Source: Natronorubrum halophilum
Lineage (GTDB): Archaea; Halobacteriota; Halobacteria; Halobacteriales; Natrialbaceae
DNA length: 64,000 nt
Assembly (NCBI RefSeq): GCF_003670115.1
Contig: NZ_QQTY01000001.1
Span: 620,001 to 684,000 of the forward strand
Direction of reading: 5' to 3'
A program made the position numbers and the translations under genes. Shown piece by piece: positions 8,801 to 43,613 of this stretch. The notes beneath the pieces are model-generated. The model was not told the origin of the DNA. It saw only the letters and a list, made by a program, of their open reading frames with translations, and did no database searches. The stretch's first letter is position 1. Each line of letters begins with the position of its first letter.

Positions 8801-8947
8801 GGACACGACACACCACCCGCTGTACACGACACACCACCCGCTGTACACGACACACCACCCGCTGTACACGACACACCACCCGCTGTACACGACACACCAC
8901 CCGCTGTACACGACACACCACCCGCTGTACACGACACACCACCTGCC
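8801..8947. repeat. Seven-copy 21-bp tandem repeat downstream of ftsZ2
   Basis: The 21-base unit GTACACGACACACCACCCGC+T is repeated head to tail. Copies begin at 8801, 8822, 8843, 8864, 8885, 8906 and 8927. Copies 2-6 are identical; the first has one changed base (GG for GT at its start) and the last ends in a diverged CTGCC. The array starts 21 bases after the ftsZ2 stop. The unit is a multiple of 3, so reading frames stay open through it on both strands, but no credible gene covers it. It has no inverted symmetry. Confidence 0.95.
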
Positions 8948-9138
8948 GATTGGCGGTTCGTTTTGCCGTTCCGTATTTTGAATCCGCTCCGCTCGAGAGT
9001 CGCAACACTCGTATCGGTATCGCAGTTATCGCGGACCGGGGCTACTAACGTTCGCACCCGTCTTTGCTGCTGATCGAAGAGTTCGTTTACAGTCGTATAC
9101 GGACGAGATACCGAAAGTTGACCGGCCGCGTTCGCGGC

Positions 9139-10098
9139 TCAAGCCAGCGACTCGAGCAACGAACACTTCCGACAGATCTCTCGGGTCGTCGTCGAGCCAC
9201 ACTCGACGCACGCTTGCAGGTCGGCACCGTCGCCGCCGCTGAACTCGTCGGAGAGAATGCTGGCGAGTTCCTCGTAGCCCGAGAGGATGGAGTGACGAGT
9301 TCCCGGATGGTTCTCCTCCAGACCGTAGAGCAGTCGCTGGATCTCGCCGCGGTAGGCCTCGCTCGAGTGGGGACATTCCGTGATGTGGGCCGGAAGATCG
9401 TTGAGGTGGGCGTAGAGGGCGATTTCCTTCTCCGGGACGTCCCGAAGGGGTTTCGCGCGCGGGACGAACTCGTCTTGCTCGTCGCGTTCGGATAGCGGTC
9501 CCAGACTGGCCTCGAAGTGCTTCGCGATCTGTTCGACGTCACCCTCGAGGAAGTTCATCAGGGCCGACTGGGCCTCGTCGTCCAGGTTGTGCCCCGTGAG
9601 CAGGATGTCCGCCTCGAGTTCGTCGGCGTATTTCGACAGCAGATCCCGCCGGAAGACGCCGCAGTAGGCACAGGCCGCCATGTTCTCGGGGTCGTCCTCG
9701 ACGACGTCGTCCATCTGAACCCCGAACTCCTCCTCGTAGCTGACGACCTCGTGGTCGATCTCGAGGTCGTCGGTGAGTTCGATGCAGGCCTCGAGGCTCT
9801 TGTCCCGGTAGCCCTCGATGCCCTCGTGGATCGTGAGCCCCACGAGTTCGATACGGGGATCCTTCGCGAAGGTGTCGTGAAGGATCCGCGTGAGGACGAC
9901 GCTGTCCTTGCCGCCGGAGAGGCCGATTACCCACGTCTGGGGGTTGTCGGGCGTCGCGTCGTGTGGGACGAGATCGTCCCGCCGCACCCGTCGGCGCACC
10001 CGCTTCTCGACCGACTCCCGAAAGTGATCCGCACAGAGGTGCGCCCCCGAGTAGGCAGCGTGCATGACCGCCTCCTCGTCACACCGGTTACAGTCCAT
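9139..10098 (-). CDS. ncsA: NcsA-like tRNA thiolation enzyme (PP-loop ATPase)
   Basis: A 319-residue member of the TtcA/Ncs6/CTU1 family. It has an N-terminal zinc-binding CNRC pair (residues 3-6) with later His/Cys, the PP-loop IGLSGGKDSVVL near residue 57 that activates the target base with ATP, a central CAYCG motif, LLTGHNLDDEAQ, and a C-terminal zinc ribbon (CVECG ... CRKC). In Haloferax NcsA works with SAMP2 ubiquitin-like protein to make 2-thiouridine in tRNA-Lys. It converges on ftsZ2, an arrangement known in other haloarchaea. Length is normal. Confidence 0.93.
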   Translation of the reverse strand: MDCNRCDEEAVMHAAYSGAHLCADHFRESVEKRVRRRVRRDDLVPHDATPDNPQTWVIGLSGGKDSVVLTRILHDTFAKDPRIELVGLTIHEGIEGYRDKSLEACIELTDDLEIDHEVVSYEEEFGVQMDDVVEDDPENMAACAYCGVFRRDLLSKYADELEADILLTGHNLDDEAQSALMNFLEGDVEQIAKHFEASLGPLSERDEQDEFVPRAKPLRDVPEKEIALYAHLNDLPAHITECPHSSEAYRGEIQRLLYGLEENHPGTRHSILSGYEELASILSDEFSGGDGADLQACVECGSTTTREICRKCSLLESLA

Positions 10099-10306
10099 TA
10101 ACGGTCCGTTGTCGTCCCCAGTCCATCACGGTTTCGCTGCGAGAACGCGAACGACTGCGTCGCAGGGTGAACGGGCGTTCGTGAAGAGTGTTGCACTGAT
10201 TCCGTAAACGACCGGTTGTCCGCTTCAGGCGGTGTTATCGTGACCGTTTCAACTACCACAACTGTCAATGGAACTGTCTTTTTGACACCCTCGAGACCGC
10301 GAGAGT

Positions 10307-38776: not shown

Positions 38777-40420
38777 ATGAACGTGCGGACGGCCGGCTCC
38801 TATCGGCCCACGAAATCCGAACTCGCGGTCTTCGTTTCAGGGGTTACCAGCATGGGCCTCGAGATCCTCGCGGTGCGGATTATCGCCCCGCAGTTCGGAA
38901 GCCACATCTACACCGTCGGCGGGATCATGACGGTTATTCTCGCCGCGTTGAGTTTCGGCTACTGGCAGGGTGGCAAGCGAGCGAGCAGCGCGACGAACCG
39001 GGAGATGTCGTGGCTGTTGCTCGCGACGGCAGTGTACGTCGCAGTCGTGGTCTACGCGAGCGATCTGCTGCTGCTACAGACGTCGACACTCGCGTTGCCG
39101 CCGCGGTACGCCGCCCTCCCGGCCGCGATCATCCTGTTCGGGCCGCCGACGTACCTGCTCGGCTTTATCAGCCCCTACGCGGCCGAGCTCTCACAGAAGG
39201 AGGGGACCGGCGAAGCGTCAGGGCACGTCTACGCCCTCGGGACGATCGGCAGCATCCTCGGCTCGGGTGCGACGACGTTCGTCTTCATCCCCGCGATGGA
39301 TATCGACAGCATCGGCGTCCTCTTCGGACTGATGCTCGTCGGAACGGCGTTCGCGCTCACGTTGCCCTCGATCTCGCGCAAACCGGTCCTCGCGAGCGTC
39401 GCCGTCGTGATACTGCTCGTCGTTGCGACCGGTGCCGGTCCGCTCGCGTACGACCACCGCGGCGACGTCGTCTACCAGACCCAGACCGCCCACCAGGAAC
39501 TCGAGGTCATCGACAACGACGATATCCGAACGATGTATCTGGACGGTGCCCGCCACAGCGCGATCGACCTCGAGGATCCCGATCGGCACGTCTTCGAGTA
39601 CATGAAGTACTTCCACCTGCCGATGCTCATGACCGACGACACCGACGATGTCGATAACGTGTTGTTCATCGGCGGTGGTGGCTACATCGGCCCACAGGAC
39701 TTCGAGGAACAGTACAACGCCGACGTCGACGTCGTCGAAATCGATCCCGACGTCACCGCCGCCGCCGAGGACTACTTCGGCCTCGAGGAGAGCGAGGATC
39801 TGAACACCTACTCGCAAGACGGCCGGCAGTTCCTCCAGGGAACTGACGAGACGTACGATCTGATCGTCCTCGACGCCTACAAGCAGGATCAGGTTCCGTT
39901 CCACCTGACGACCGTGGAGTTCATGGACCTCGTCTCCGAGCGGTTAGCCGACGACGGCATCCTCCACGCCAACGTCATCTCCGCGCCGAGCGGTCCCGCC
40001 TCCGAGTTCTACCACGCCCAGGAGCGGACGATGGACGAAGCGTTCGGCGACACGTACAGCTTCCGCACCTCGAACTCGAGTTCGATCCAGAACATTCAGA
40101 TCGTCGCGACGAACGACGAGACCGACTTCACCGAGGCCGACCTCGCCGAGCGAAACGCCGAACGAAACCTGAGCGTCGATCTCTCGGGAGCGATCGACAA
40201 CTACATGGCCGGTTCCAGCAGCGACGACGCCCCCGTACTTCGGGACGACCGCGGCGAGGTCGACAGTCTGCTCGATCCGATGCTCGGTCAACGGTACGTC
40301 ATCGAGGAGACGGGCGAATCCGGCTCGAGTGCCGGCGCTGGCGATGACCTCGCCGGAACGCCGTCGGTGATCGCACCTGACGGCAAAGCGCTGGCCGCGC
40401 CGGTAGCGAAGGTTTCGTAA
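38777..40420 (+). CDS. Membrane-anchored spermidine-synthase-like protein
   Basis: A 547-residue fusion. Residues 1-225 hold about seven membrane helices (opening ELAVFVSGVTSMGLEILAVR, with HIYTVGGIMTVILAALSFGYW). Residues about 235-450 are a spermidine-synthase-type methyltransferase fold: FIGGGGYIGPQDF (SAM-type loop), VDVVEIDPDVTAAAEDYF, and the DGRQFL ... DLIVLDAYKQDQVPFHL segment. Family members of this kind are widespread but their substrate is rarely known; true polyamine synthesis is not assured. A low-complexity C-terminal tail follows. No speD-like gene is nearby. Confidence 0.87.
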   Translation: MNVRTAGSYRPTKSELAVFVSGVTSMGLEILAVRIIAPQFGSHIYTVGGIMTVILAALSFGYWQGGKRASSATNREMSWLLLATAVYVAVVVYASDLLLLQTSTLALPPRYAALPAAIILFGPPTYLLGFISPYAAELSQKEGTGEASGHVYALGTIGSILGSGATTFVFIPAMDIDSIGVLFGLMLVGTAFALTLPSISRKPVLASVAVVILLVVATGAGPLAYDHRGDVVYQTQTAHQELEVIDNDDIRTMYLDGARHSAIDLEDPDRHVFEYMKYFHLPMLMTDDTDDVDNVLFIGGGGYIGPQDFEEQYNADVDVVEIDPDVTAAAEDYFGLEESEDLNTYSQDGRQFLQGTDETYDLIVLDAYKQDQVPFHLTTVEFMDLVSERLADDGILHANVISAPSGPASEFYHAQERTMDEAFGDTYSFRTSNSSSIQNIQIVATNDETDFTEADLAERNAERNLSVDLSGAIDNYMAGSSSDDAPVLRDDRGEVDSLLDPMLGQRYVIEETGESGSSAGAGDDLAGTPSVIAPDGKALAAPVAKVS

Positions 40421-40432
40421 CGGGCTGATCGA

Positions 40433-41296
40433 TCACTCCGGCCGGGAGTAGTCGGGATCGAACAGTTGCGCCGATCCGGGCGCTGGATCACCCTCCGTCA
40501 GGTTGTACTGCGAAAAGTCCTCGACGCCCGCCGCTCGCAACAGTTCCTCGTCGTAGACGGCGTTCCCGGTGAACTCAGCGGGATCACGGCCGAGGATCTC
40601 GAGGACCGTGTCGCTGACGATTTCGGGCGTTCGCCAGTCGTCTTCGGTCCCCATGCCGAAGTATCGGGTCGCCCGCGTATCGATCGCCGTCACGGGCCAG
40701 AAGGCGTTACAGCCGACGTCGTCGTCGCCGAGCTCGCTCGCCAGCGTGAGGGTGATGAAGGTCATGCCGAGTTTCGACCACGCGTACGGACCCGATCCGG
40801 GGGCGCGGTCGATCCCCACCGGCGGCGCGTTCGTGAGCAGCCACGCGTTCTCGACGTCCCGCAGGTGATCGGCGAACGCCCTCGAGGTGAGGTACGTCCC
40901 GCGGACGTTTACGTCGGTCAGGAGATCGAACCGTTTCGGCGGGAGGGTCTCGACGGTCGCCAACTGGATCGCACTCGCGTTGTTGATGACGATGTTGACG
41001 GTCCCGAACTCATCGATCGCGCGTTCGGCTGCCGCCTCGACCGCCGCCTCGTCGCGAACGTCCAGTTTGATCGGGAGCGCGTCGACTCCACGCTCGCGGG
41101 CCTCGCGGGCCGTCCGCTCGATCGATCCCTCGAGGTCGCGGTCCTCGTAATCGGCGTCTTCCTCGCTGGTCTTCCCGGTCGAAACGACGTTACAGCCCCG
41201 TTCGGCCAGCGCGAGCGCGATCGATCTGCCGATGCCGCGCGTCGTCCCGGTGATGAACGCCGCCTGTCCGGAGAGATCCGGTTGCTCGAGTGCCAT
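40433..41296 (-). CDS. Short-chain dehydrogenase/reductase (SDR)
   Basis: A 287-residue SDR. The cofactor loop is TGTTRGIGRS (residues about 15-24); NNASA replaces the common NNAG; the catalytic Tyr-x3-Lys is in GPYAWSKLGM. An insert after the second strand (EEDADYEDRDLEGSIERTA) is typical of the HSDL2/peroxisomal-type branch, which often works on lipids or isoprenoids. It runs toward and ends 12 bases from the spermidine-synthase-like gene on the other strand. Substrate unknown. ATG at 41296 gives the normal family start. Confidence 0.88.
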   Translation of the reverse strand: MALEQPDLSGQAAFITGTTRGIGRSIALALAERGCNVVSTGKTSEEDADYEDRDLEGSIERTAREARERGVDALPIKLDVRDEAAVEAAAERAIDEFGTVNIVINNASAIQLATVETLPPKRFDLLTDVNVRGTYLTSRAFADHLRDVENAWLLTNAPPVGIDRAPGSGPYAWSKLGMTFITLTLASELGDDDVGCNAFWPVTAIDTRATRYFGMGTEDDWRTPEIVSDTVLEILGRDPAEFTGNAVYDEELLRAAGVEDFSQYNLTEGDPAPGSAQLFDPDYSRPE

Positions 41297-41663
41297 GCGT
41301 TTGCATTCGACGGGAAGTGCAAAAGAGTCGGTGAAAGGGAAGTCGCTCCGATTCCCGTGCTGGTTGTTCACGGGCCTCGGGTTTGTAGCGGACAGCGATC
41401 CTCCGACAGCCGCTCAGGCGGGTGTGCGGTGACGCTCGACGGCGACGGTGGCACCGACACGAGTCTCGAAACGTGATCCGCCGTACGACGACGTGCGCCG
41501 TGGTAAACCACCAGGCGCGATAGCAAATCGACGATGGGCGCGGTGAGAGGACCACTTACTGAGACGAGGGACAGCGATCGGTGGATTCCCGCGTCTGCTA
41601 TAAGAGAACATTCAACATGGCCCGGTCCCGAAGCGGTGGAGACCCGGCATTCACGCAGGAGAG
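41297..41663. other. Intergenic region between SDR and ProRS-like gene
   Basis: About 370 bases between two minus-strand genes. I found no supported reading frame and no RNA gene. The section near 41595-41620 (GCTATAAGAGAACATTCAAC) has a TATA-like string that would point to the plus strand, but no gene follows in that direction. Confidence 0.4.
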
Positions 41664-42917
41664 TCAGCCGACGATACTGGCGACCGCTTCGACGCTCGCG
41701 TACCGAGTCGTCCCGTCGCGCGACTCGAGTTCGACCTCCCCGTTCTCCCGGTAGTGATTCCCGAGGATCACCTTCCAGGGGACGCCGAGCAGGTCGCTTT
41801 CGGCGAACCGCTCGCCGGTAGTTTGGTCAGCGTCGTCGAAGAGGAGCGTGTCGTCCCGGCCGCAGGCCTCGTGCAGGCGGTCGGCGACGTCCCGGAACTC
41901 CCCGTCGTACTCGAGGGGGACGATGGAGACGCTGAAGGGGGCCACCTCTCCGAGACCCGCTCCGGGCCAGCGACAGCCGTCTTCGTCGCCGTGCTGTTCG
42001 ACGAGCGCGTGCAGGAGTCGCTCGATTCCGATGCCGTAACTCCCCATCACCACTTCGCGTTCGGACCCGTCGGGAACGTCGACGGTCATCCCTCGAGGGG
42101 CGGTATACCGAGTCCCGAGTTTGAACACGTGGCCGATTTCGATCCCCTCGCCGGCCCTGAGACGACCGCCACACTCGGGGCAGGTGTCACCGGCCGACAG
42201 CCCGAAGCGAGGAGACTCGTCGGTCGCGCCGAACCGGCAGTCCGTGCCGCCACACCAGCGGAGGGTGAGCGATCCGGTATCGGCGAGTGCGACGAACTCT
42301 TCGGACGCGGAGCCACCCATGACGCTGTTCTCGGCCGCCGTGACGGCGAACTCGAGACCGAGGCGCTCACAGATGCGCGCGTAGGCCCCACGAACCCGGT
42401 CGTAGTACTCGTCGAGCGAGTCTCGAGTGGCGTGCAGGCTGTAGGCGTCTTTCATCGTGAACTCCTTCGTCCGGACGAGGCCGTTTCGCGCGTGGTCGTC
42501 GCGGTACTTCGACTCGACCTGATACAGCAGGACGGGCAGATCGGTGGCGGAGCGAACGACGCCGTCAAGGAGGTGTGTCACGCCCTCCTCGTGCGAGGGA
42601 GCCAGGCACAGCCGTTTGCCATCGCGGTTTTCGAACGTGAACATCTCGTCCGCGAAGCGCTCCCAGCGGCCGCTCCGTTTCCAGATGCCCGCGTCGTTCA
42701 GCGAGGGGAGGCCGATTCGGTGACCGCCGATGGCGTCCATCTCGTGCCTGATGAGTCGGATGAGGTTCTCTCGAACCCGCTGACCGGTTGGCGTGAAGCC
42801 GTACAGTCCGCTCCCGAACTGCCGGACGAGGCCCGCCCGCACCGTGAGCGCGACGGTCTCGTTCTCGTGACCGTTCGCCTCGCGGCTCGTAAACAGCAGC
42901 GTCTCACTCCGTCGCAT
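41664..42917 (-). CDS. Bacterial-type prolyl-tRNA synthetase homologue lacking the INS domain
   Basis: A 417-residue class II synthetase-like protein. Its N-terminus (MRRSETLL, RAGLVRQFGSGLYGFTPTG) and motif regions (RSGRWERF, APSHEEGVTHLL, RTKEFTMKDAYSLH, and motif 3 GSYGIGIERLLHAL near residue 295) follow bacterial ProRS, not the archaeal/eukaryal form that haloarchaea use for housekeeping. The roughly 180-residue INS editing domain expected between motifs 2 and 3 is missing; in its place is a segment with CGGTDC and CPEC (residues 222-249), perhaps a zinc knuckle. An anticodon-binding domain remains (about 325-417). Whether it charges tRNA-Pro or acts on something else is unknown. It is probably acquired by transfer. 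Confidence 0.88.
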   Translation of the reverse strand: MRRSETLLFTSREANGHENETVALTVRAGLVRQFGSGLYGFTPTGQRVRENLIRLIRHEMDAIGGHRIGLPSLNDAGIWKRSGRWERFADEMFTFENRDGKRLCLAPSHEEGVTHLLDGVVRSATDLPVLLYQVESKYRDDHARNGLVRTKEFTMKDAYSLHATRDSLDEYYDRVRGAYARICERLGLEFAVTAAENSVMGGSASEEFVALADTGSLTLRWCGGTDCRFGATDESPRFGLSAGDTCPECGGRLRAGEGIEIGHVFKLGTRYTAPRGMTVDVPDGSEREVVMGSYGIGIERLLHALVEQHGDEDGCRWPGAGLGEVAPFSVSIVPLEYDGEFRDVADRLHEACGRDDTLLFDDADQTTGERFAESDLLGVPWKVILGNHYRENGEVELESRDGTTRYASVEAVASIVG

Positions 42918-43187: not shown

Positions 43188-43613
43188 CTACGCTTGAGCG
43201 CTTCCCGTGACGACGACGGGTCGATCGGCGTTGAGAATCACCGACTGCGTAACGCTGCCGAAGACCGCTTTCCCGACCGGTGATCGACTTCGTCCGCCGA
43301 GCACGATCGAATCGACGTCGTACTCCTCGGCCGTCGCCAGAATGTCGCCCTCCTCGACGTCCCCGCTTTTATCCAGGACGGTGACGTCGACATCGTTGTC
43401 TTCCAACTGCTCTTTCGCTCGCCGAACGGAGCCGATACGTGAGGCCGACTTGAACTGCTCGAACTCCTTCGGGAGGTCCTTGCCCTCCTCGGTGAAGATG
43501 AACAGCAGGTACGCTTCGACGGATTCGACCGCGTCCGGGAGCGACGCGACGTATTTCGCCTGCTGGACCGATCGCTCTTCGCTGGTATCGACGGGGATCA
43601 GAACGCGATACAT
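43188..43613 (-). CDS. UspA-like universal stress protein
   Basis: A 141-residue single Usp domain. It begins MYRVLIPVDTSEERS and ends with the ATP-binding-type pattern VLGGRSRSPVGKAVFGSVTQSVILNADRPVVV (G-2x-G-9x-G(S/T) motif). Haloarchaeal genomes carry many such paralogues, used in stress or metabolic adaptation. It is divergent from the E1-alpha gene with 126 bases between. Confidence 0.92.
   Translation of the reverse strand: MYRVLIPVDTSEERSVQQAKYVASLPDAVESVEAYLLFIFTEEGKDLPKEFEQFKSASRIGSVRRAKEQLEDNDVDVTVLDKSGDVEEGDILATAEEYDVDSIVLGGRSRSPVGKAVFGSVTQSVILNADRPVVVTGSAQA

Follow-up and report, generated by a model that had tools for sequence, protein, structure and literature searches.

The window, a 64,000-nucleotide stretch of contig NZ_QQTY01000001.1 of the haloarchaeon Natronorubrum halophilum, carries a gene for a second prolyl-tRNA synthetase (ProRS) of the bacterial (P) type that lacks the INS editing domain (Table 1). 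The open reading frame starts with ATG and encodes a protein of 417 aa. It lies between the genes of a short-chain dehydrogenase and a universal stress protein; in congeners with an empty site these two genes are adjacent, with no ProRS gene between them, and in two congeners the ProRS gene is found at other sites. The neighbouring genes are conserved only among close species, within genera but not between them, and neither a transposase nor a tRNA gene adjoins the ProRS gene in the window; linkage to a mobile element was rejected on these grounds. Carriage on plasmids was also discarded, since the matches listed from a plasmid collection were all less than 60% identical and none of them was haloarchaeal. 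A 547 aa ORF near the ProRS gene (window positions 38777–40420) resembles, by eye, a membrane-anchored spermidine synthase-like protein.

Table 1. Features of the ProRS locus (window positions)
Feature	Position	Strand	Basis
Left neighbour, short-chain dehydrogenase	40433..41371	-	Adjoins UspA in congeners without the insert
P-type INS-less second prolyl-tRNA synthetase gene	41664..42917	-	ORF, family scores, fold match
Anticodon-binding domain (PF03129)	41703..41930	-	Pfam
Motif 3, MGSYGIGIER with invariant R300 (E. coli R450)	42018..42047	-	Alignment
Second Cys pair, C246-x2-C249	42171..42182	-	Alignment
Short linker at the INS site of most bacterial ProRSs	42183..42215	-	Alignment
First Cys pair, C222-x4-C227, probable zinc knuckle, ancestral	42237..42254	-	Alignment
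Motif 2 loop, RDD-HARNGLVR; V143 deleted, R144 to His; codons 142–144 at 42486–42494	42471..42503	-	Alignment
Proline-site TXE loop, S108-H109-E110 (E. coli T109-H110-E111)	42588..42596	-	Alignment
Right neighbour, universal stress protein (UspA)	43188..43613	-	Adjoins short-chain dehydrogenase in congeners without the insert

The protein contains two Pfam families, the class II core (PF00587) and the anticodon-binding domain, and no other. It matches the NCBIfam P-type ProRS family NF006625 with an E-value of 1.1e-117, passes the cut-off of the P-type family TIGR00409 (358.7 bits versus 306.7) and fails that of the E-type family TIGR00408 (94.9 bits versus 437). The C-terminal zinc extension of E-type enzymes, ending in tyrosine, is missing; the chain stops after the anticodon domain. 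The top PDB sequence matches are bacterial ProRSs. The AlphaFold model, with a mean pLDDT of 83.6 and a poorly defined motif-2 loop and N-terminus, has the INS-less ProRS of Rhodopseudomonas palustris (2i4n, TM 0.81/0.77) as its best structural match by length; the values for E. faecalis ProRS are 0.80/0.60, and E-type enzymes fit the model less well than these two. Family scores and fold therefore uphold the bacterial type proposed in a first-pass annotation made from the sequence. Haloarchaeal genes of this kind are probably annotated simply as proline–tRNA ligase.

The INS domain, of about 180 residues, is typical of P-type ProRS but not universal, and INS-less members are known. Its absence, also noticed at first pass, extends to all 44 distinct haloarchaeal homologues aligned. 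Two Cys pairs lie at the gap, as had been reported; the CxxC pair was described correctly, whereas the other is C-x4-C (222, 227) and not CxxxxxC. The four cysteines are present in 43–44 of the 44 haloarchaeal sequences, and cysteines occupy the same columns, bordering INS, in 35 of 46 INS-containing bacterial ProRSs. A novel zinc insert is thus ruled out: what remains after the loss of INS is an old knuckle. At near-invariant bacterial columns, the majority haloarchaeal residue is the same in 91 of 138 cases, the lost columns including the entire INS with Lys279; the window enzyme is probably devoid of self-editing. A free-standing INS-like protein (PF04073) is encoded in 10 of the 12 carriers and 54 of the 113 non-carriers in the family of the host (Fisher p 0.03, uncorrected for kinship), a weak hint of editing in trans. 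Such a protein is encoded at G000:C2:943516–943878.

Class II motifs 2 and 3 are present in the window ProRS, and residues E111, R140, R146, R151 and R450 (E. coli numbering, as for the residues below) are conserved in 44/44 haloarchaeal homologues. A loss of pocket residues, considered at first pass as a sign of an inactive enzyme, is not observed; the ATP pocket is intact, and the proline pocket differs by a conservative change, Thr109 to Ser. Serine occupies this position in all 40 accessory haloarchaeal copies (41 of the 44 aligned homologues), and threonine in all 58 bacterial sequences and the three of a basal haloarchaeal group. The position of Lys519 is taken by arginine in the 40 haloarchaeal sequences outside that group. 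With the clade rooted at its midpoint, the two differences may represent specialisation as a second enzyme. Arg512 of the anticodon domain, conserved elsewhere, is lost here and also in the sole alphaproteobacterial ProRS compared. The haloarchaeal P-type ProRS is under purifying selection; in a synonymous-rate test, dN/dS was 0.02–0.28 in 10 of 11 pairs, while the remaining pair, a very close one, stood at 0.77.

Six class IIa core matches were found in the 4.67 Mb host genome, one of them an archaeal E-type proS at C1:808393–809832, so the window gene is a second ProRS, as had been suggested, and not the only proS of its host. The E-type enzyme is expected to carry out the same reaction on the same tRNAs; the window ProRS is without its zinc extension. 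E-type proS occurs in 124 of 125 genomes of the family, the lone exception being a 67% complete genome. INS-less P-type homologues were found in 12 of these 125 genomes and in 36 of 391 genomes sampled from the class; among 295 genomes sampled across the phylum there were nine matches, all in the same order. The E-type gene is also present in 36 of the 38 carriers checked and absent from two (G125 and G129). In a quick tree that took in one alphaproteobacterial sequence, the haloarchaeal sequences form one clade (SH-aLRT 100) on a long stem apart from all bacterial ones; the INS-less bacterial sequences do not come together as a single group (four changes). Among the twelve carriers in the family, the E-type enzyme has changed more slowly than the second ProRS: the window copy is 77% identical to that of a congener (G109), versus 94% for the E-type enzymes of the same pair. 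In the tree of these carriers, the window copy stands apart from those of its congeners, with weak support. Its faster evolution could reflect a relaxed duty.

The motif-2 loop is altered in every haloarchaeal copy, which backs the altered tRNA properties raised as a possibility at first pass. V143 is deleted and Glu142 replaced by Asp in 44/44 sequences; R144 is replaced by His in 41 and retained in three. The RPR loop with R144, through which P-type ProRS reads the G72/A73 end of the tRNA, is not retained in the window enzyme. R144, the first Arg of this loop, is required for the charging of bacterial tRNA-Pro (G72/A73), which falls more than 1000-fold on its loss, but is dispensable for activation, and P- and E-type ProRSs are described as unable to charge each other's tRNAs (PMC12152171). 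The three host tRNA-Pro species (TGG, GGG and CGG) all have G1-C72-A73. The host tRNA scan was non-exhaustive, missing tRNA-Pro(CGG), which was recovered by a pattern search; the tRNAs detected carry ordinary anticodons. A scan of the window and of 22 further haloarchaeal loci gave no adjacent tRNA-Pro with a non-Pro anticodon, and a dedicated partner tRNA was dropped as a candidate, with no tRNA gene near the ProRS gene in the window or, within 6 kb, in most carriers.

Halodesulfurarchaeum formicicum HSR6 (G129) has a closed chromosome of 2,085,946 bp (PMC5437934). Read whole, it encodes an INS-less P-type enzyme as its sole ProRS (1290598–1291779, minus strand; TIGR00409, 405.9 bits). E-type proS was not found on the whole chromosome by tblastn, phmmer or the E-type profile, the latter giving 59 bits to the P-type ProRS gene and 42 to a ThrRS-like ORF, with 1076 bits for a true E-type enzyme as the positive control. 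All three tRNA-Pro species of HSR6 have G1-C72-A73. Since a cell must charge tRNA-Pro and HSR6 has no other ProRS, its P-type enzyme very probably charges archaeal C72 tRNA-Pro. The premise that haloarchaea use an archaeal ProRS thus has at least one exception, HSR6. The HSR6 enzyme is about 50% identical to the window ProRS and retains Thr109, so that functional inference from it to the window copy spans a long branch. Thr109 is kept throughout the basal group, consisting of HSR6, G125 and one metagenome-assembled genome, QS_1_68_20 (L037:6001–7215). By eye, transposon-associated TnpB-type-like ORFs adjoin the sole ProRS gene of two Halodesulfurarchaeum-like genomes (L353:6445–7791 and 8859–10259; L354:4237–5496).

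We consider it likely that the window gene encodes a competent, horizontally acquired P-type ProRS. The enzyme would be of the bacterial type, catalytically competent and stripped of the INS editing domain; it would have entered haloarchaea by horizontal transfer, and its motif-2 loop would have been rebuilt for charging archaeal tRNA-Pro (C72) and not bacterial tRNA-Pro (G72). In Halodesulfurarchaeum it would have replaced the native E-type enzyme, and in the window host and most carriers it would be a dispensable addition to that enzyme, serving as a spare or an alternative isoform. The retention of R144 in three of the 44 sequences, the loss of Arg512, the long branch to the HSR6 enzyme and the faster evolution of the window copy count against this reading. 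The rebuilt loop and the sole-ProRS state of HSR6 with its C72 tRNA-Pro make it very probable that the family can charge archaeal tRNA-Pro. For the window enzyme, we infer from sequence comparison both charging of C72 tRNA and a backup role; it probably functions as a reserve or alternative enzyme, and its physiological role may lie in inhibitor tolerance, stress or an altered substrate range. The chances are about even for the whole course of events in which the P/E barrier was crossed, with editing lost, the loop rebuilt, the native enzyme displaced in Halodesulfurarchaeum and a Thr109Ser-specialised second ProRS established elsewhere.

Compatible with this reading, and a tentative suggestion, is an isoform tolerating natural E-type ProRS inhibitors (halofuginone-like, proline mimics) under intermittent selection. 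The patchy distribution of the gene, its differing or empty sites among congeners and the presence of the E-type gene in nearly all carriers fit such a resistance role, as do the known parallels of IleRS2 and SerRS2 (PMC9437257). The role is plausible because P-type enzymes show a roughly 100-fold lower sensitivity to halofuginone (PMC12152171). However, no biosynthetic or resistance genes linked to the ProRS gene are seen, and as the sole enzyme in HSR6 the P-type ProRS is not merely a resistance gene. We also know of no E-type ProRS inhibitor in haloarchaeal habitats. It is improbable that the enzyme binds tRNA-Pro, charges it inefficiently and has a regulatory or other function: all catalytic motif residues are retained under strong purifying selection, although haloarchaeal LeuRS2, with drastically reduced charging and retained tRNA affinity, provides a precedent (PMC9437257), and evolution faster than that of the E-type enzyme and Thr109Ser in every accessory copy are in keeping with degeneration.

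That the enzyme makes adenylates of proline or another amino acid for an acceptor other than tRNA, as envisaged at first pass, is very unlikely. A second copy in the genome and the substitution in the amino acid site would suit such an enzyme, but the anticodon-binding domain is complete (PF03129), unlike in an amino acid:carrier protein ligase-type paralogue, the class II motifs are kept and the same enzyme type is the sole ProRS in HSR6; the neighbours, being unconserved between genera, suggest no partner pathway. Hardly any weight is given to programmed mistranslation with a special tRNA. Streptomyces ProRSx (PMC10365949, PMC11415595) is likewise an additional P-type ProRS whose tRNA-reading parts have changed; nevertheless, no tRNA gene lies within 6 kb in most carriers or near the gene in the window, and the host tRNAs found in the non-exhaustive scan have ordinary anticodons.

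Bacterial LeuRS in haloarchaea (PMC3436685) and ProRSx as a second P-type ProRS are already known; what is new is the haloarchaeal P-type ProRS clade, the loop change that it shares and the replacement in HSR6. The part of the literature searched contained no paper on a haloarchaeal P-type ProRS. The HSR6 case, a replacement in a closed archaeal genome whose tRNAs keep C72, makes the P/E non-crossing rule directly testable when taken with the shared loop change, and the same holds for what the motif-2 loop does. The gene family also offers a P-type ProRS that would be free of editing and suited to archaea.

Like the P-type ProRS, LeuRS-B/LeuRS2 is a bacterial aminoacyl-tRNA synthetase scattered in haloarchaea and sometimes replacing the archaeal form (PMC3436685); it belongs to a different synthetase class, and LeuRS-B is found in most haloarchaea, whereas P-type ProRS is found in about 9%. 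ProRSx shares with the window ProRS its status as an additional P-type enzyme with altered tRNA-reading parts, but it arose by duplication of a bacterial ProRS and adjoins tRNA-ProX, while a horizontal origin is proposed for the window enzyme and no partner tRNA was found for it. The INS-less ProRS of R. palustris (PDB 2i4l/2i4n) has the same P-type core and anticodon domain without a full INS, with 31% identity to the window ProRS in the structural alignment; the alphaproteobacterial sequence compared (Sinorhizobium, L217), unlike the window ProRS, retains the RPR motif-2 loop and is missing the region of the second Cys pair. The INS-less ProRSs of Omnitrophota, 32–37% identical to the window ProRS, have kept the four cysteines in most cases. 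They differ from it in keeping T109 and the bacterial loop with R144 and Glu142, and in the position of their gene in an rseP-ispG-proS-rimP-nusA-infB housekeeping cluster. In several Omnitrophota (L041–L048, L050), the INS-less P-type ProRS is apparently the housekeeping enzyme. In Paenibacillus puerhi (genome G657), no INS-containing ProRS was seen, and a 490 aa frame elsewhere gives an E-type-like match; its INS-less P-type ProRS (L049:6001–7272) groups with Paenibacillaceae and represents an independent INS loss.
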